Virus record (IMG/VR): IMGVR_UViG_3300049927_000015
Coordinates: 1-29,786 of that record
Strand: one strand, 5' to 3'
DNA from: a virus
Length of the DNA: 29,786 bases
The notes beneath the pieces are model-generated. The model ran no database searches and was not told the DNA's origin. It worked only from the letters and a program-made list of their open reading frames with translations. How positions within the stretch are numbered: the first letter of the stretch is position 1; the number at the start of each line of letters is the position of its first letter. Positions 2 through 28,180 of this stretch are shown in pieces. A program made the translations under genes and the position numbers.

Positions 2-1165
2 CTTTCCTTTTCCGGTGGAAAAGATAGCACTGTAATGCTTCACCTAGTCATGGATGAGTGCAAGAAGCGGAACAGAAAGATAGGCGTTTTGTTCATTGAC
101 TGGGAAGTCCAGTACAAGCTAACCATCCAACACGTCGAGGGCATGTTTGAACTATACAAAGAGTGGATTGTCCCATACTGGGTTGCTTTGCCCATGACCA
201 CCGAGAGCGTGGTATCCCAGTATGAACCCGAATGGATTTCCTGGGACCAGGCAAAGAAGGATCTATGGGTTAGGCAATCGCCAGACTTCGCAATCAAGGA
301 TGAATCATTCTTCCCGTTCTATCGACACGCCATGCAGTTCGAGGAGTTTATTCTAGATTTTGGTAACTGGTACGCACAGAAGGACTCACCGGAGTGGTCT
401 TCATGCTATGAGCCAACCGTTGGGTTTGTCGGAATCAGAACAGATGAGAGTTTGAACAGACTCTTGAAGCTATCTGTTGGAAAGAATCGCACTCACTACA
501 ATGGTAATAGGTGGATGCTGAACTTGCGGTCAACTCACTTTGATATTATCATGGCTCACCCCATATACGATTGGAAGACTCAAGACATCTGGACGTACAA
601 CGGGAAGTTCTTCAAGCCTTACAATCTGATTTATGACCTCATGCACAAGGCGGGAGTCCCTATCTCGAAACAGCGCATAGACGAGTTTTTTGGATCAGCG
701 GCAAGGCGCGGGCTCTGGGTATTGCACAGCATCGAACCCGATACTTGGGCAAAGGTTACGGGAAGAATCACGGGGTGTAACTCAGGAGCCTTGTATGCGC
801 GTGATTCAGGGAGCATGACAGGTGATAGGAAAATCAGCAAGCCAGAAGGACATACATGGAAGTCATTCGCCAGTCTACTCCTTCATTCTATGCCTGATAA
901 AACATCAGAACATTATCAAAACAAGATTGCGATATACCTAAAGTGGTATTACAATCGTGGATATCCTAGTGGGCTTCCCGATGAGGAGGACGGAGACTTG
1001 GAGACAAAAGACAAACACCCGTCATGGAGAAGAATATGCAAAGTGCTGCTGAAGGGGGACTACTGGTGCAAGGCGCTCTCTTTCACGCCGACCAAGGGGT
1101 CGAGCTACGAACGATATCTAGCAGTGATGCGGAATCGGAGGGCAAAATGGGGAACGTTTTGGTGA
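2..1165 (+). CDS. IbrA-like PP-loop protein (PAPS reductase/DUF3440 family), 5' partial
   Basis: The frame is open to the window edge, so the true start lies upstream; the ATG at 35 is internal. The first visible residues carry the PP-loop motif SGGKDST (bases 11-31), the ATP-pyrophosphate binding loop of PAPS reductases and other N-type ATP pyrophosphatases. The rest resembles the DUF3440/IbrA family: a PIYDWKTQDIW block, YDLMHKAGVPISKQRIDEFFG, a GCNSGALY segment and GHTWKSFASLLL. About 388 residues are visible, close to full family length. E. coli IbrA acts with the ParB-like IbrB to raise expression of eib genes; the reaction catalysed is not known to me. The next gene, overlapping by 19 bases, is ParB-like, so the pair is kept here. 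A role in nucleic-acid modification or host/phage gene control is inference. Confidence 0.85.
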   Translation, partial: LSFSGGKDSTVMLHLVMDECKKRNRKIGVLFIDWEVQYKLTIQHVEGMFELYKEWIVPYWVALPMTTESVVSQYEPEWISWDQAKKDLWVRQSPDFAIKDESFFPFYRHAMQFEEFILDFGNWYAQKDSPEWSSCYEPTVGFVGIRTDESLNRLLKLSVGKNRTHYNGNRWMLNLRSTHFDIIMAHPIYDWKTQDIWTYNGKFFKPYNLIYDLMHKAGVPISKQRIDEFFGSAARRGLWVLHSIEPDTWAKVTGRITGCNSGALYARDSGSMTGDRKISKPEGHTWKSFASLLLHSMPDKTSEHYQNKIAIYLKWYYNRGYPSGLPDEEDGDLETKDKHPSWRRICKVLLKGDYWCKALSFTPTKGSSYERYLAVMRNRRAKWGTFW

Positions 1166-1659
1166 ATAATCACCCAGTTTCCAATGTCCAATGGGTACCG
1201 GCTGAACAGGTATATGCGAACGATTACAACCCAAACAAAGTAGCCCCGCCTGAGATGAAGCTCCTAGAGCGCTCGATCATAGCCAACGGATACACGCAGC
1301 CAATCGTGGTATGGAAAACCGAGGAAGGCTATGAGGTGGTAGACGGTTTCCATAGGCACTTAGTCGGGAAGAAATTAGGATTTACTCATCTACCGGTTGT
1401 GGTCCTGAACACGGAAAGCACTACAAGGGAAGGGCGAATGGCTGCAACGATCAGGCATAATAGGGCGCGGGGAAAGCACAAAGTACAGGCCATGAGCGAT
1501 ATCGTAGTAGAGCTTTCCAGGAAGAACCATTCAGACGAGTGGATTAGCCGAGAGTTGGGAATGGATGCGGACGAGGTGCTTAGGTTGAAACAGATCACTG
1601 GCCTTGCCGAACTTTTCAGCGGTAAAGAATTCTCGGAAGCTTGGGAGATCGAAGTATGA
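1147..1659 (+). CDS. ParB/Srx-fold protein, IbrB-like
   Basis: Predicted 170-residue protein of the ParB N-terminal domain type. Visible signatures are VPAEQVYANDYNPNKV near the start, LLERSIIANGYTQPIVV, and the core motif VVDGFHRHLVGKKLG, the position of the GERR-like nucleotide-binding box of ParB/sulfiredoxin folds. A C-terminal helical part (SRELGMDADEVLRLKQITGLAELF) looks like the HTH that follows in IbrB and ParB proteins. I chose the ATG at 1147 because GGAGG lies about five bases upstream and the overlap with the previous stop is short. An ATG at 1024 would add 41 residues of low-complexity sequence that is the shadow of the upstream gene. Together with that gene it forms an IbrA/IbrB-like pair. 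Partition function is unlikely, since no ParA is present. Confidence 0.82.
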   Translation: MGNVLVNNHPVSNVQWVPAEQVYANDYNPNKVAPPEMKLLERSIIANGYTQPIVVWKTEEGYEVVDGFHRHLVGKKLGFTHLPVVVLNTESTTREGRMAATIRHNRARGKHKVQAMSDIVVELSRKNHSDEWISRELGMDADEVLRLKQITGLAELFSGKEFSEAWEIEV

Positions 1660-1808
1660 CCCCAGCCGAAAAGCTAGAACACCTGGAGCGAATCCGCCAT
1701 ATCAAGACTCCCAAGCGGGCAGAGTCCTCTAGGGCCAACGCTAACCTCCCCCCCAAGCCAGGCAAGATGGCTAGGGGTAGGCCGAGAAAGGATGGGGCAA
1801 TGCCATGA
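1656..1808 (+). CDS. small basic protein with AT-hook
   Basis: A 50-residue ORF whose ATG overlaps the stop of the ParB-like gene (ATGA), which argues for translational coupling. It is rich in Lys, Arg and Pro and carries RGRPRK near the C terminus (residues 40-45), the core of an AT-hook that binds the minor groove of AT-rich DNA. The N-terminal half (PAEKLEHLERIRHIK) looks helical. Nothing else identifies it. A DNA-binding accessory to the upstream pair is possible but inferred only from the motif and the coupling. Confidence 0.6.
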   Translation: MTPAEKLEHLERIRHIKTPKRAESSRANANLPPKPGKMARGRPRKDGAMP

Positions 1809-1984
1809 TCCAAGCCCCTGTATTTCGTCGCCAAGCCTCAAGCGGGGCCGATCATCGCCGAGACGTGCAAACCCAGCCAAAACGCGATGGCGACGGCATT
1901 CCGGTCTATCCACGGTACAAGTCCAGCTACATACCGGAGCACGACATATCAAGACGGTACTGGGTTGGAGGTAGGAAGAAGTGA
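1805..1984 (+). CDS. hypothetical small basic protein
   Basis: A 59-residue ORF starting with an ATGA overlap on the preceding AT-hook ORF. It is rich in Arg, Gln and Tyr, with a C-terminal stretch IPVYPRYKSSYIPEHDISRR that looks like real coding sequence. A competing frame (1792-1974) is low in plausibility and lacks the coupling. I do not recognise a family. It closes the run of overlapping genes that begins with the IbrA-like protein. Confidence 0.5.
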   Translation: MIQAPVFRRQASSGADHRRDVQTQPKRDGDGIPVYPRYKSSYIPEHDISRRYWVGGRKK

Positions 1985-2024: not shown

Positions 2025-2228
2025 ATGACAATCCAAAACCTCTTCCTATCCAACACCCGCCGACTCATGAACGAACAGAACATCAGCGTTGCCGGTATGC
2101 ATAGATCTACCGGGATGAGCGAAACCCATATCGCGGGGGTGCTCATTGGTGATACCGGCGTCACCTTGCGCACAATCGAACGGTTTGCTAAGGTGTTCGG
2201 ATGTCAGCCTTGGGAAATGATAAAGTGA
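2025..2228 (+). CDS. Cro/CI-type (XRE) helix-turn-helix protein
   Basis: A 67-residue protein that is essentially one HTH_3 domain. The helix-turn-helix is GMHRSTGMSETHIAGVLIG, followed by the typical third helix and tail TLRTIERFAKVFGCQPWEMI. It has no dimerisation or peptidase domain, so it is Cro-sized rather than a full CI repressor. No strong Shine-Dalgarno precedes the ATG; 40 bases separate it from the previous gene. It lies directly before the terminase genes, a place suited to a switch protein for late or accessory genes, but its target is unknown. Confidence 0.75.
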   Translation: MTIQNLFLSNTRRLMNEQNISVAGMHRSTGMSETHIAGVLIGDTGVTLRTIERFAKVFGCQPWEMIK

Positions 2229-2243: not shown

Positions 2244-2621
2244 ATGGCAAAGAAAGGCGGAAGCCCTGAAAACCTTGTCTCACTAGCCGATAGAACAACG
2301 GAAGAACAACAAAAAATTACCAAGGCTGGTGGAATCAGATCTGGTGAGGTTCGTCGAGAGAAAGCTAAAGTGTCTTCGATCATGGCTAACTTGCTAATGC
2401 AAGAACATGATATCGAAATAGACGGCATATCTATGGGTAAGATGAGCGGTGAGAAACTCCTCGGTGAAGTCGCTGTCAGGATCATCGCTAAGGGTGATAA
2501 TACTTCGGTAGCAATGATGCGGCTAATTCTTGATGCTACCGAGGGTAGTAAGTCTCAGTTGACGGGGGACGGTGGCGCACCGCTAAAAATGACCGTTGAA
2601 ATTATTGACCCGAAAAAGTGA
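2244..2621 (+). CDS. terminase small subunit-like DNA-packaging protein
   Basis: 125 residues, highly charged, with AGGIRSGEVRREKAKVSSIM, a segment often seen in phage small-terminase-like proteins, and a C-terminal helix around AVRIIAKGDNTSVAMMRLIL. A GAAGGAAG box lies nine bases before the ATG. The stop overlaps the GTG of the large terminase (GTGA), the usual order for terS-terL. The assignment rests mainly on position and on the charged helical pattern; a small regulator is the main alternative. Its expected role is recognition of the packaging site and regulation of the large subunit. Confidence 0.65.
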   Translation: MAKKGGSPENLVSLADRTTEEQQKITKAGGIRSGEVRREKAKVSSIMANLLMQEHDIEIDGISMGKMSGEKLLGEVAVRIIAKGDNTSVAMMRLILDATEGSKSQLTGDGGAPLKMTVEIIDPKK

Positions 2622-3859
2622 AACTCAACCGAACATACCAGCAACTCCTTGGTCCTGACGGCACTCTGCGGAAAGATGTCCGATATTTTGAGATATATGG
2701 CGGTAGACGATCTGCAAAGAGTCATGATGTTGATGCTATAGTCGGATTGACGGCCACTATTGAGCCAGGTCATTTTGTTGTAGGGGTCCGCAAGGTTGCT
2801 ACTACCCTCAAGGATTCGATCTTTGCCGAGTTCAAGGGGTTCTTTCGAGATAACGACATCCCGGTGCAGGTGAACGAAACCGACAAGGAAATCAGATTAG
2901 CCAACGGAAGCCGTATTCGATGCTTCGGACTAGACGACCCTGAAAAGTTGAAGTCTCTTAAAGGTGCCACAATCATAGTCCTAGAAGAAGCCAATGAGTT
3001 GTCAGAAGATGACTTCGATTCTTTAGATGCTGGATTATCACCAACGAATTATCCTGGGCGTATTATCCTACTACATAACCCGGTGCCAAAGGTTCCGGGG
3101 CTAGATTACTGGTATGAGAAGAGATTTCAGAATATTCCGCACGAATTGTCAAAAGCTATGATCAATGAACTATCAAACGCTCTAGTCCTGAGAACATGGT
3201 ACAAAGACAACGCCTTTTGTGCGCCTGAGACGATCCGAGTCCTCGAAGGCTACGAGAAGACTAACCCTACAAAATACAAGCTATGGGCTTTGGGAGAGTC
3301 AGTCCGAGTGGATGGCGTTGTTTTCGATAACTGGGATGTTGTCAAGCAAGTACCCGAAGGAATCGCACATGATTCTCTTGGCGTGGGGCTAGACTTCGGT
3401 TTCTCAAACGATCCATCGGCAGCCGTCCGAATCTGGATTCTCGATAATGAGATATGGGTCAAGCTTCTTGTATACAGCACCGGTCTACACAACGAAATGC
3501 TTCTGAACGCTTTAATCGGCGCAGGAGTTAAGGAGCATGAGATAGTAGTCGCTGATTCTGCCAGGCCGGATATTATAGAGGATCTTCACCGTCGAGGACT
3601 TCGTGGTATCAAGGGAGTGAAGAAGCATTCCGGGTACAAAGAAGACGTGGCCAATCGGCTACGATCATTCAAGATCCACTTGATTGATGGCGACATTGAT
3701 TTGATTCGAGAGTTCTCAACGTATGCATGGGCTCAAGATAGAAGCGGAAAACCGTTGCCAAAATTACAGGATGGAGACGACCATGGAATCGACGCGACGC
3801 TGATGGGGCTTACGGTCTTCGGATTGGGGAAAAAAGAATACCCCATGCTTTTCTCTTGA
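2618..3859 (+). CDS. terL: terminase large subunit (ATPase-nuclease)
   Basis: 413 residues, the normal size for a Terminase_3-type large subunit. The N-terminal ATPase shows a Walker A variant GGRRSAKS (residues 28-35), Walker B IIVLEEAN with the catalytic Glu pair at 123-124, and a coupling motif LLHNP near 151-155. The C-terminal RNase H-like nuclease has the three acidic clusters expected for metal binding: GLDFG (Asp259), VADSARP (Asp313) and DDHGIDA (about residues 387-392). The start is a GTG overlapping the previous stop. It powers packaging of DNA into the prohead through the portal encoded next. Headful versus cos packaging cannot be told from this alone. Confidence 0.96.
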   Translation: MKLNRTYQQLLGPDGTLRKDVRYFEIYGGRRSAKSHDVDAIVGLTATIEPGHFVVGVRKVATTLKDSIFAEFKGFFRDNDIPVQVNETDKEIRLANGSRIRCFGLDDPEKLKSLKGATIIVLEEANELSEDDFDSLDAGLSPTNYPGRIILLHNPVPKVPGLDYWYEKRFQNIPHELSKAMINELSNALVLRTWYKDNAFCAPETIRVLEGYEKTNPTKYKLWALGESVRVDGVVFDNWDVVKQVPEGIAHDSLGVGLDFGFSNDPSAAVRIWILDNEIWVKLLVYSTGLHNEMLLNALIGAGVKEHEIVVADSARPDIIEDLHRRGLRGIKGVKKHSGYKEDVANRLRSFKIHLIDGDIDLIREFSTYAWAQDRSGKPLPKLQDGDDHGIDATLMGLTVFGLGKKEYPMLFS

Positions 3860-9809: not shown

Positions 9810-11123
9810 ATGGAAAAAAGCCTTGAAAAAATCGGCAAGTTTCAAGTCAAACAGATCGGTGATCCTGCTGATCGAGTTCTAAGGTTTCTAGGAACCGACG
9901 AAACCGAAGACCGTGATCACGATATCATCAAGGCCGACGGGTGGAAGTTTGAGAATTATCTCAAGAACCCTGTGTTCCTTCCTTTCCATAATTCATGGAC
10001 AGTACCTGCTGCGAAATGTGTAGGGATCACTCGTGGTTCTGGTATGGCTGGGGTATCGTTCGATATCAAGTTCGCTAGTATTGAAGATCTTTGTACGAAC
10101 CCGGACACTCCGTCTCAGGAGGCGCTTCTAGCGGACACGCTATATAACGCCTACATGAACGGATTCATGTCCGCCGTGTCTATTGGATTCATTGTTCTGG
10201 AATCCGAGGAAAACGATTCGGGTGAGAACAAGGATCTTCCTTCGTGGCAACGCGGACGGATTTTCACTTCTCAGGAAATGATCGAGCTTTCAGCCGTAGC
10301 AATTCCAGCCAATCCTAACGCGCTGATTCAGGCTCGGTCGTTTAAAGGCTGGAAGGCTGGTCAGTTCGATATCCTCAAGACCATTCTCTCGCCTGCCAAG
10401 AAAATCAAAGGCGCTATTGCTTACAAGAAGTTCCCACTCGCTGACAAGGATTCGGCTTGGGACGGCGCTACCGTAGTCAAGGAAGCTGATGTCGACGATC
10501 TCAAGGTAGTTTGCGCCTGGTTTGATTCGGACAACGCCGAGGATAAAGGCGCATACAAACTCCCGCATCACCTCGGGTCTGCTGACGGTCATAAGACCGT
10601 ATGGGCTGGCGTCAAAGCGGCTATGGGCGCACTTCTTGGCGCTCGTGGCGGAGTCGGTATCCCTGAGGGTGATAAAGAGAAAGTGCACGCGCATTTGTCC
10701 AAACACTACAAGGAGTTCGACGAGGAAGCGCCGGAACTCAAATCGTATTCTGCGACCGAACTCAAAGCAATGTTTCCTGCGGAGGAACTAGATATGAAAG
10801 CTGACGAAGTAACCAAAGCCATCACGGACGCCGTCGCGCCTCTTTTGAAGAGAATCCAAGCATTTGAACTTTCCCAGAAAGCTGGTGCGAAACACTCAGC
10901 TGTCACGCTGGAAAAGATGCAGACGGCTATGGATCACATCCAGAGGGGATACGCCACCCTGAAGGATCTCATGGACGGCGACGGTGAGGAGCCGGGTGGC
11001 CAGAATCCCAGCGAGACCGACCCCGGTATCGACAACGAGAGCGGGCAGGAAGGTAATGCCGCCGACAAGAGTTTCGGGATTGATCTTTCGAAGATCAACC
11101 TGGACGCAATGCTGAGTGCTTAG
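9810..11123 (+). CDS. HK97-type prohead protease with long C-terminal extension
   Basis: 437 residues. Residues 1-185 match the phage prohead protease (S78/U35) family: RFLGTDETEDRDHDII, FLPFHNSW with the candidate catalytic His60, NGFMSAVSIGF with the candidate Ser, and the family hallmark IELSAVAIPANPNAL. Residues about 195-312 form a second conserved unit (AYKKFPLADKDSAWDG, YKLPHHLGSADG, GARGGVGIPEGDKEKVHAHL), known from extended prohead proteases and related head proteins. The remainder is helical and acidic and may act as a scaffold that is cleaved during maturation; the capsid N terminus is also helical. The Shine-Dalgarno is weak (GGTGAT). Confidence 0.9.
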   Translation: MEKSLEKIGKFQVKQIGDPADRVLRFLGTDETEDRDHDIIKADGWKFENYLKNPVFLPFHNSWTVPAAKCVGITRGSGMAGVSFDIKFASIEDLCTNPDTPSQEALLADTLYNAYMNGFMSAVSIGFIVLESEENDSGENKDLPSWQRGRIFTSQEMIELSAVAIPANPNALIQARSFKGWKAGQFDILKTILSPAKKIKGAIAYKKFPLADKDSAWDGATVVKEADVDDLKVVCAWFDSDNAEDKGAYKLPHHLGSADGHKTVWAGVKAAMGALLGARGGVGIPEGDKEKVHAHLSKHYKEFDEEAPELKSYSATELKAMFPAEELDMKADEVTKAITDAVAPLLKRIQAFELSQKAGAKHSAVTLEKMQTAMDHIQRGYATLKDLMDGDGEEPGGQNPSETDPGIDNESGQEGNAADKSFGIDLSKINLDAMLSA

Positions 11124-19713: not shown

Positions 19714-21501
19714 ATGGCAGTCAGTGAAACGGTATTCGGATTCGACCAGATCAGTGCGAATAATCCTCAGTATACAGCCGCACAAACTCTCGCATGGCTG
19801 TGGCAGACCTTGCGTCGAAACGATGGCGTGGCGCAGGACCTGGATCTTGCATTAGCCGTTACGTCCGATGGTCTTGGAAATGTGCTAACACAGAACGGTG
19901 CTGCGTTCCTTTCTGGTCGCTCATACGTACTCTCTGGTGGCCCCCAGACTACCGCGATGACTCCAGCCCCGGCTTCGGGATTTCAGACTTCTTATGCTAT
20001 CGTTGTCAGGTTTGTCACTGCTACCGCAGTCGGGACCATTACTAGTATCGCGGGCTCGACTATCGCCAACCCAGGGCCTCCGGTCAATCCTTCTATTGTT
20101 GCCGCCACTGATATATTGCTTGCCTATGTCAAAGCAGTGAACACCGCAGGTACGATTGTCTATACGGTAACTGACGCCAGAACATTTTGCGGAATTGGCC
20201 CGGCTGGAATCGATACATTTTATGGGCATTCTGCACTTTCATTGCAATATGCCTCGACTGGTAGTGGGTTCACTGCGGTTGGGTTCGAAGCTCTCAAAAT
20301 CGCGTCTACTACGTCGCCATCAACCGCATTCGGGTATCGGGCATTATTGTCCCTGACTACAGGAGTTCGAAACACTGCCATTGGATATCAGTCTTTGATG
20401 GCTCTGACCACTGGTACAAATAACACTGCGATTGGAAACTCGGCACTTGCTGCCACAACGACTGGTGTATTTAACACTGCGGTGGGCACTAACGCCCTAA
20501 CATTGAACACGATAGGCACACAAAATACTGCGATTGGGAGTAGCTCACTAGCAGCGAACACGACTGGTGGATTTAACACTGCGGTGGGATATCTGTCACT
20601 AACAGCGAACACGACCGGTCAGGATAACGCTGCCGTTGGTACTGGCGCTCTACAATCGAACACTACTGGCGTACAAAACACGGGCATTGGCTCTGGTTCG
20701 CTATCAGCAAACACAGTCGGTACAAATAACACTGCCATTGGATATCGATCTCTGGCGGCAAACACTACCGGAATACAAAACACTGCGGTGGCAAATAGCG
20801 CACTGGCTGCAAACACTGGCGGAATACAAAACACTGCGGTGGGAGATAGTGCACTGGCTGCAAACACGATAGGCACAAGTGGTACTGCTATAGGAAGCTC
20901 GGCATTGGTTTCAAACACGACTGGAACTAATAACACCGCCGTTGGAGCAGCGTCTCTCAACACCAATACTACTGGCAGTAATAATACAGGAATAGGATTC
21001 AATGCTATCTCGACAACTGCCACCTCTGGGAATCAGATCACTTTAGGCAATTCTAGTGTAACCATTCTCAGGGCACAAGTTACCATCATAACGGCATTGT
21101 CAGACGCTAGGGACAAGCGAGATATCAATAATCTTCCTGATATGTTGGCTTTGATTCGAGCAGTCAAGCCAGTGACATTCCGATGGGATATGCGCGAACG
21201 GTACGCTACCAAAGATGACGCGGGGCAGATATTGCGAGACGAGAACGGATGTCCGATCTATGATGGTGTCTCAGATGGCACGCTTGCTGATGAGCATGAG
21301 ACTCTCGGCGTTATTAGCCAAGATCTCAAGGCATTGCAAGAGTCTTTCAATATGCCATATCTCAACCTAGTTCATGATGAGAATCCTAATAGATTGGAGG
21401 CCACACCAGGACATCTATTGCTACCGGCAATCAAGGCTATTCAGGAACTTGCTGATCGTGTCGACGCGCTTACGCATAAGGTGAATAGGTTGATTGGCTA
21501 A
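19714..21501 (+). CDS. tail fibre with 17-residue head repeats and C-terminal S74 chaperone domain
   Basis: 595 residues. Residues 1-165 form an N-terminal attachment region. Then comes a long array of 17-residue repeats (13 full copies, about residues 217-437) with consensus G-x-x-NTA[IV]G-x-x-[AS]L-xx-NTT, resembling the left-handed beta-roll of YadA-type trimeric adhesin heads. The C terminus (463-595) is a Peptidase_S74 intramolecular chaperone: SDARDKRDI gives the Ser463-Lys468 dyad, and VISQDLKAL and LLPAIKAIQELADRVDAL form the usual helical tail. S74 domains drive trimerisation and then cleave themselves off just before the Ser. It probably carries receptor binding. A convergent minus-strand gene overlaps its last four bases. 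Confidence 0.9.
   Translation: MAVSETVFGFDQISANNPQYTAAQTLAWLWQTLRRNDGVAQDLDLALAVTSDGLGNVLTQNGAAFLSGRSYVLSGGPQTTAMTPAPASGFQTSYAIVVRFVTATAVGTITSIAGSTIANPGPPVNPSIVAATDILLAYVKAVNTAGTIVYTVTDARTFCGIGPAGIDTFYGHSALSLQYASTGSGFTAVGFEALKIASTTSPSTAFGYRALLSLTTGVRNTAIGYQSLMALTTGTNNTAIGNSALAATTTGVFNTAVGTNALTLNTIGTQNTAIGSSSLAANTTGGFNTAVGYLSLTANTTGQDNAAVGTGALQSNTTGVQNTGIGSGSLSANTVGTNNTAIGYRSLAANTTGIQNTAVANSALAANTGGIQNTAVGDSALAANTIGTSGTAIGSSALVSNTTGTNNTAVGAASLNTNTTGSNNTGIGFNAISTTATSGNQITLGNSSVTILRAQVTIITALSDARDKRDINNLPDMLALIRAVKPVTFRWDMRERYATKDDAGQILRDENGCPIYDGVSDGTLADEHETLGVISQDLKALQESFNMPYLNLVHDENPNRLEATPGHLLLPAIKAIQELADRVDALTHKVNRLIG
20362..21024 (+). repeat. 13 tandem 51-bp repeats in the fibre gene
   Basis: Thirteen in-frame units of 51 bases encode 17-residue repeats of G-x-x-N-T-[AG]-[IV]-G type. 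Units 4, 5 and 8-10 are the most alike (shared GCAAACAC and AACACTGCGGTGG tracts), so copy number could change by recombination. Diverged units extend a little upstream from about 20221. Confidence 0.9.
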
Positions 21502-27444: not shown

Positions 27445-28101
27445 CTAAAGCTCGTAGTCCTCAGCTTCTTCGCGAGTGATGAAGAAATGAATCCCAGAGG
27501 AGCATTCCGCCCACCGGTTGTCGTCCCACTTGTCAGGACGAACCGTCGCTCCTGCAATATATTTAAAGTCTGCCGACCGACTCGAAAAACCGACCGAAGC
27601 CCCGTCCACTTCCAGGACTTCAGCCCACTCAGCGCGACACTTCCGCCCAGAAGCGTTCGATCTCTTGGCATCGGTTGGTATTCTCAGCTTCACAATGCAA
27701 TGGCCACCATTTCCATCTCGGCACTTCTTGTAACCGATCAGATCCCCCTCGGGGGTGATCGAGGTCATGGCGAATGCGCTGGAAGCGTTCATTGCCCCGG
27801 ACAGGATGGCCCCGGACAGGTTGGCCCCGGACAGGATGGCCCCGGACAGGTTGGCCTTGGACAGGTTGGCCCCGGACAGGATGGCCCCGGACAGGTTGGC
27901 CCCGGACAGGTTGGCCCCGGACAGGATGGCCACGAACAGGTTGGCCCCGGACAGGATGGCCCCGGACAGGTTGGCCTTGGACAGGTTGGCCTTGGACAGG
28001 TTGGCCCCGGACAGGTTGGCCCTGGCTCCTCCTTGCTCATCAAGAATCCACTTCTTGTGCTTGGCTATGATCTCGGCAAGTTCTTCGATGGTCATGGTCA
28101 T
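27445..28101 (-). CDS. pentapeptide-repeat protein with C-terminal DUF5758-like domain
   Basis: 218 residues from the ATG at 28101, with GAGAGG five bases upstream; a more distal ATG at 28125 lacks one. Residues 1-25 are a helical cap ([20 protein letters not shown]). Residues 28-102 are 15 pentapeptides of A-[NI]-L-S-[GK], which fold as a right-handed quadrilateral beta-helix. Residues about 117-218 form a separate domain ([67 protein letters not shown]) resembling DUF5758. Some pentapeptide-repeat proteins mimic DNA and block gyrase; this one has no acidic excess in the repeats, so that role is not supported. Confidence 0.8.
27796..28020 (-). repeat. 15 tandem 15-bp units in the pentapeptide-repeat gene
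   Basis: In-frame 15-base units encode [10 protein letters not shown] or AILSG; one divergent unit reads ANLFV. Near-identity between neighbours suggests recent expansion. Confidence 0.9.
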
Positions 28102-28119
28102 AGTTTCCTCTCTCCTTTC

Positions 28120-28180
28120 GGCCATGCTTGGCCATCATCAGCGGCTCAGAACAGAGCCAGAGGAGCGCCCCCGAGGGGGC
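28120..28180 (-). promoter_or_regulatory. three stacked hairpins in the leader of the pentapeptide-repeat gene
   Basis: In 61 bases lie GGCCA-TGCT-TGGCC (28120-28133), GGCTC-AGAACA-GAGCC (28143-28158) and GCCCCC-GA-GGGGGC (28167-28180). They fill the gap between the amber-interrupted gene and the pentapeptide gene. No T-run follows, so an attenuator, RNase barrier or protein site is more likely than a simple terminator. Confidence 0.5.

Follow-up and report, generated by a model that had tools for sequence, protein, structure and literature searches.

Phages and bacteria widely encode pairs of a DUF3440 protein and a ParB-domain protein, for which co-activator has been the only label in two decades. 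The pair IbrA/IbrB of Escherichia coli is described solely as an activator of eib genes in the account of Sandt et al. 2002 that is cited in PMC10434257, and the literature that we found contains no demonstrated chemistry for any DUF3440 protein. DndB is the ParB-superfamily partner in a DNA phosphorothioation system (PMC10853773), and ParB-domain proteins also accompany the cytosine-hypermodification genes of phages (PMC12783734). Here we analyzed a pair of this kind at the start of a 29,786-base virus record (hereafter the window); the record also encodes terminase, portal, capsid and further structural proteins.

An IbrA/IbrB-type pair at the contig edge

The first gene of the window (positions 2–1165, plus strand) is truncated at its 5′ end, and alignment with full-length relatives places about 30 N-terminal residues of the encoded protein off the contig. 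The preliminary description of this gene block was accurate in what it reported and left the truncation unmentioned. It had recognized a PP-loop protein of the DUF3440 type, and this assignment is confirmed by the matches of the frame to Pfam DUF3440 (E-value 4.6e-29; 101.9 bits compared to a cut-off of 25) and PAPS_reduct (1.1e-12), as well as to phrog_2302 (7e-71) and phrog_15645 (8e-77), which together describe an IbrA-like protein with a PP-loop/PAPS-reductase-like fold. The PP-loop ATP-binding motif SGGKDS (11–28, plus strand), read directly from the sequence, stands in the frame as FSGGKDST, and its residues F3, S4, G6, K7, D8 and S9 are kept in at least 83 of 86 aligned relatives. A second motif, YP[IL]YDW, is present in 80 of the 86 copies and takes the form HPIYDW in the window. 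Residue Cys227 is a cysteine in 78 of 86 relatives and an aspartate in the window (bases 680–682) and in four other loci (L006, L033, L074 and L085); the family as a whole therefore does not depend on it. The window protein contains five cysteines only, two of which occupy family-conserved columns.

The PAPS_reduct match, together with the PAPS reductase labels found in phage annotations, could point to a sulfur-assimilation-type auxiliary gene set, in which IbrA would be a PAPS-reductase-like enzyme that alters host sulfur metabolism. We regard this as very unlikely, since the C-terminal CGxH motif of CysH-type PAPS reductases occurs in 0 of 86 copies, the score for the NCBIfam model PRK02090 reaches 20.8 of the required 154 bits, and neither the pairing with a ParB fold nor the recombination genes in the neighborhood of such pairs would be expected for sulfur assimilation.

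The second gene (1147–1659, plus strand) encodes an IbrB-like protein of 170 residues with a ParB/Srx fold and overlaps the IbrA gene by 19 bases, as had been noted earlier. Its start at ATG 1147 coincides with the start position in the closest relatives, and the longer frame from 1024 is unnecessary. The protein matches ParB_N of Pfam with 37.3 bits (cut-off 26.3; E-value 2.9e-9) and phrog_2159 with an E-value of 1.5e-65. Two motifs, one of the DGFHR type and one resembling TIRHNRARG (DGFHR and TIRHNRARGKH in the window), are present in 86 of 86 aligned copies, by which measure the ParB-like partner is highly constrained. A further conserved part, LGMDxDExLRL, is located toward the C-terminus. 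When its profile was compared to solved chains, SbnI was among the five best matches (E-value 9e-4), and ParB and Noc chains were matched as well.

The two proteins share 48.7% and 54.2% identity with those annotated as IbrA and IbrB, respectively, in Escherichia phage PhiR5_2, which bears out the initial assignment to the IbrA/IbrB type. Judged by these similarities, the pair is a member of an already known family, of which the window holds a further copy.

Constancy of the pairing

A scan with the window IbrA alone returned no loci; the scan with a ParB alignment did yield loci. The locus sets comprise the best 80 per scan and are therefore biased to close relatives. Among the best 80 viral-contig loci chosen by ParB alone, IbrA is adjacent in 79, and the single exception (L018) starts inside ParB. 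Likewise, IbrA lies beside ParB in 80 of the best 80 cellular loci. The pairing of IbrA and ParB is thus constant.

The mosaic occurrence of the pair on mobile elements and chromosomes would also be compatible with a two-gene toxin-antitoxin or defence/counter-defence module, and a DUF3440/ParB pair of Listeria has been counted, by association, among putative toxin-antitoxin pairs (PMC7020466). We consider such a module unlikely: the Listeria label is one of guilt by association only, both IbrA and ParB are large and enzyme-like, and the only PADLOC fits are to the PP-loop portion of DndC/BrxP, which is generic, and to the ParB portion of a type II methyltransferase.

The small ORFs behind the pair

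The pair is followed by an ORF of 50 residues (1656–1808, plus strand; 13 lysines and arginines) with an AT-hook core, ARGRPRK, and by a second basic ORF of 59 residues (1805–1984, plus strand; likewise 13 lysines and arginines). That each of them is joined to the preceding frame by an ATGA junction, as proposed initially, is borne out by the sequence. Further downstream lie a Cro/C1-type HTH gene (2025–2228, plus strand; Pfam HTH_26, 1.2e-8), a presumed small terminase gene and the gene of the terminase large subunit (2618–3859, plus strand; Pfam Terminase_3, 6e-34), which marks the packaging module. On reading the remainder of the window, we gained the impression that a long ORF with many NTAIGxxSL-type repeats (19714–21501) resembles a YadA-like tail fibre whose C-terminal part is chaperone-like, and that an ORF on the minus strand (27445–28125) contains a pentapeptide-like repeat run (ANLSG).

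Compared to its homologue in the viral contig L109, the AT-hook ORF differs at 6, 4 and 21 nucleotides in the first, second and third codon position, respectively; 15 codon changes are synonymous and 8 non-synonymous, and both sequences share the ARGRPRK core. This third-position substitution bias marks the AT-hook ORF as a genuine gene. Its two relatives were found only in viral contigs, near terminase and portal genes, and in both the IbrA/ParB pair is absent. In L109, the homologue is located between large terminase and portal-like genes. The other relative lies on one 50-kb contig (L088/L110), the terminase of which is 86% identical to that of the window; here, the AT-hook tail is found downstream of the terminase and is interrupted by an extra stretch. 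Within L088 (about 10300–10640), the AT-hook gene is split, reading MTPAEKLEHLER up to a stop, and the roughly 180 bases that follow encode another domain ending in an AT-hook tail. A search of the whole L088/L110 record, run without a positive control, returned no ParB relative of the window's kind, and a profile search found neither IbrA or ParB nor the proteins X and Y described below in any terminase-selected locus. The occurrence of AT-hook relatives near packaging genes without the pair indicates that the AT-hook gene travels with the packaging region. On these comparisons it is a passenger of that region, and its adjacency to IbrA/ParB in the window is accidental.

The preliminary description had suggested that the two small ORFs are constant partners of the pair and that the AT-hook ORF serves as its DNA-targeting part, forming a four-gene unit in which the enzyme is directed to DNA. 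The ATGA coupling and the short spacing in the window are consistent with this idea, but either ORF is found in 0 of 165 other IbrA/ParB loci (6 from annotated phages, 79 from viral contigs and 80 cellular), and the contigs with AT-hook relatives lack the pair. This missing co-occurrence is half of what had been named beforehand as counting against such a unit, which we now regard as scarcely credible, and the AT-hook ORF is ruled out as a partner. In the 500 bases downstream of other pairs, GRP motifs were seen twice, both times in unrelated frames of high GC content.

With a value of -0.077, the codon score of the 59-residue ORF falls within the distribution of non-coding sequence and is lower than that of all tested coding segments of the window's genes. 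The ORF matches no family, and neither phages nor viral contigs yielded a relative. Hence, it is unlikely to be a functional gene, unless it is an orphan.

Two small proteins, X and Y, recur beside the pair

In other phages, the pair has recurrent companions of a different kind, two small and undescribed proteins that we term X and Y. X is an all-helical domain of about 125 residues, which matches neither Pfam nor PHROG families. It is located between ParB and IbrA, or at their junction, in all 57 loci with ParB-first order (51 phage and 6 cellular), and in at least 16 of these it is fused to the C-terminus of ParB, giving a protein of about 330 residues. Fusions of this type are seen, for example, in L032, L035, L039, L041, L043 and L046. 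Such natural fusions argue for a functional link between X and ParB. An X alignment scan of viral contigs, which is independent of IbrA, yielded 77 loci (L191–L267; new identifiers, a few on contigs already in earlier sets) with IbrA beside X in 77 of 77 and ParB in 76, the exception being cut by the contig end; ParB and X are fused in 38 of them. In the collection of phage records, X is found in six, each of which is an IbrA/ParB phage as well.

One sub-branch of loci has a gene for a GNAT acetyltransferase-like protein located between ParB/X and IbrA (L047:1147–1590, L078:1909–2322 and L087:5912–6298, the last with a match to Pfam Acetyltransf_10). Mycobacterium phage Nebkiss and XCL1123 carry X after ParB in IbrA-first order. 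In Nebkiss, a GIY-YIG-like endonuclease gene is located between the ParB gene and X (L278:3242–4893), and the annotation of XCL1123 (L279:3575–4505) describes the products of the ParB genes as ectoine synthase/ParB multidomain proteins.

Y is a β-rich, phrog_26647-like protein of about 130 residues and is encoded directly upstream of IbrA in 25 of 35 IbrA-first phage loci. X takes the upstream position in two of the 35, X and Y never occur together, and in the other eight neither is seen, among them the window and L014, which are both cut at the upstream slot. Two alignments of Y (A4 and A5) varied too much for a scan; a narrower one returned 12 loci. Y-like genes are also found without IbrA or ParB nearby (L277 and Streptococcus phage Javan128, L280:1–309), so that Y is less exclusive than X and also exists outside the pair.

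AlphaFold2 models of both proteins are confident, all helical for X (mean pLDDT 94.7) and β-rich with a C-terminal helix for Y (mean pLDDT 91.3). Neither model gave a convincing match in Foldseek (best E-value 2.6 for X and 0.18 for Y) or a convincing solved relative in VIA-align (X: best Z 3.5, rmsd 4.4, 67 residues aligned; Y: best Z 5.2, rmsd 3.3, 77 residues aligned), which is not proof of new folds. No description of X or Y was found in the literature, with most subscription journals and preprints lying outside the search.

In a quick tree of 123 IbrA proteins, the window is sister to L026 (SH-aLRT 99), an IbrA-first locus with Y. Loci labelled by X, Y or none require 10 changes on this tree compared to a mean of 54.9 after shuffling, and X falls into at least two separate starred clades. 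No X or Y is encoded elsewhere in the window, and the upstream slot would precede the first base of the contig. Since the sister locus L026 has Y, we expect a Y gene directly upstream of the window's IbrA, just off the contig.

Likely function of the pair

We consider a nucleic-acid-related enzyme unit the likeliest reading and, at a rough probability of 45%, propose that phage IbrA/IbrB pairs form a two-protein enzyme that makes a nucleic-acid or nucleotide modification, usually together with X or Y, the AT-hook gene being unrelated and linked to packaging. IbrA would bind ATP in its PP-loop and, by analogy with the superfamily, most likely activate a substrate by adenylation. The ParB-like partner, with its ParB/Srx nucleotide-binding fold, a G-x-H-R pocket like that of SbnI and an HTH-like C-terminal part, most likely binds a nucleotide and presents or recognizes DNA. 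Together, both proteins may carry out the modification in the early, DNA-metabolism stage of infection, and X or Y would be the third small protein that completes the unit in most phages. An undescribed enzyme system of three components with this activity, built around the phage pairs, in which X and Y fill the third slot in a mutually exclusive manner and to which the window would belong as a member of the Y type, is a possible but more tentative extension.

The pair's neighbors include YqaJ and RecE-like exonucleases, RecT, Sak4-like proteins, RusA, PD-(D/E)XK nucleases, C5 and N6/N4 DNA methylases and terminases. This gene setting and the ParB-domain proteins beside other phage DNA-modification genes make a nucleic acid the most likely target; since the neighbors are mixed and include terminases, however, the link to DNA modification is suggestive at most. 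Against the proposal stand the aspartate in place of Cys227 in the window's IbrA and the fact that adenylation of DNA and adenylation of a protein or metabolite are indistinguishable by sequence comparison.

The E. coli precedent raises the question if the pair rather acts as a transcription co-activator, with the HTH-like part of the ParB-like protein binding DNA and IbrA modulating it, to control genes of the phage or of a resident prophage. Besides the reported activation of eib genes, which is an experimental observation, this is in line with the HTH-like residues near the C-terminus of the ParB-like protein (HTH_Cbp1, 0.00099) and with the IbrB homologue YbdM being a predicted transcription factor and ybdNM a regulated operon (PMC9068703). 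However, the eib effect could be indirect, the PP-loop and NTP pocket are intact and strongly conserved, as expected for enzymatic turnover, and the neighbors are mostly DNA-metabolism genes, so that a co-activator role appears less likely. With X, constant and supported by fusions in many phage pairs, and with Y in others, there is a defined complex for expression, structure determination and assay, and the core unit can now be separated from accidental neighbors such as the AT-hook gene.

Comparison with known systems

The preliminary description had named DndC as an example of a PP-loop protein that adenylates its substrate. DndC, which acts with DndB, and IbrA have the PP-loop ATPase in common, but DndC is not a good model beyond that: the DndC family profile TIGR03183 gives 19.1 bits compared to the NCBIfam cut-off of 290.4, and neither the Fe-S cysteines nor the cysteine dyad of DndC (PMC10853773) is conserved, with no C..C pair in 86 copies. 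DndC-type sulfur transfer is therefore unlikely. No DndD or DndE was recognized among the family matches listed.

The window's ParB-like protein shares the ParB_N domain fold with the canonical ParB/Noc CTPase clamp. As a canonical ParB partition protein it was rejected, the GERR and ENxQR motifs being found in 0 of 86 copies and TIGR00180 reaching 28.4 bits compared to 58.45. With the SbnI/SerK and sulfiredoxin branch it has the DG-x-H-R pocket motif in common, at weak similarity, and differs from that branch in its extra C-terminal part and in having IbrA as a partner.

The closest described systems are IbrA/IbrB of E. coli ECOR-9 and YbdN/YbdM of K-12, which share both domains, their adjacency and the gene order with the window. 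The enterobacterial chromosomal copies have neither X nor Y nearby, whereas Y accompanies the IbrA that is closest to that of the window.
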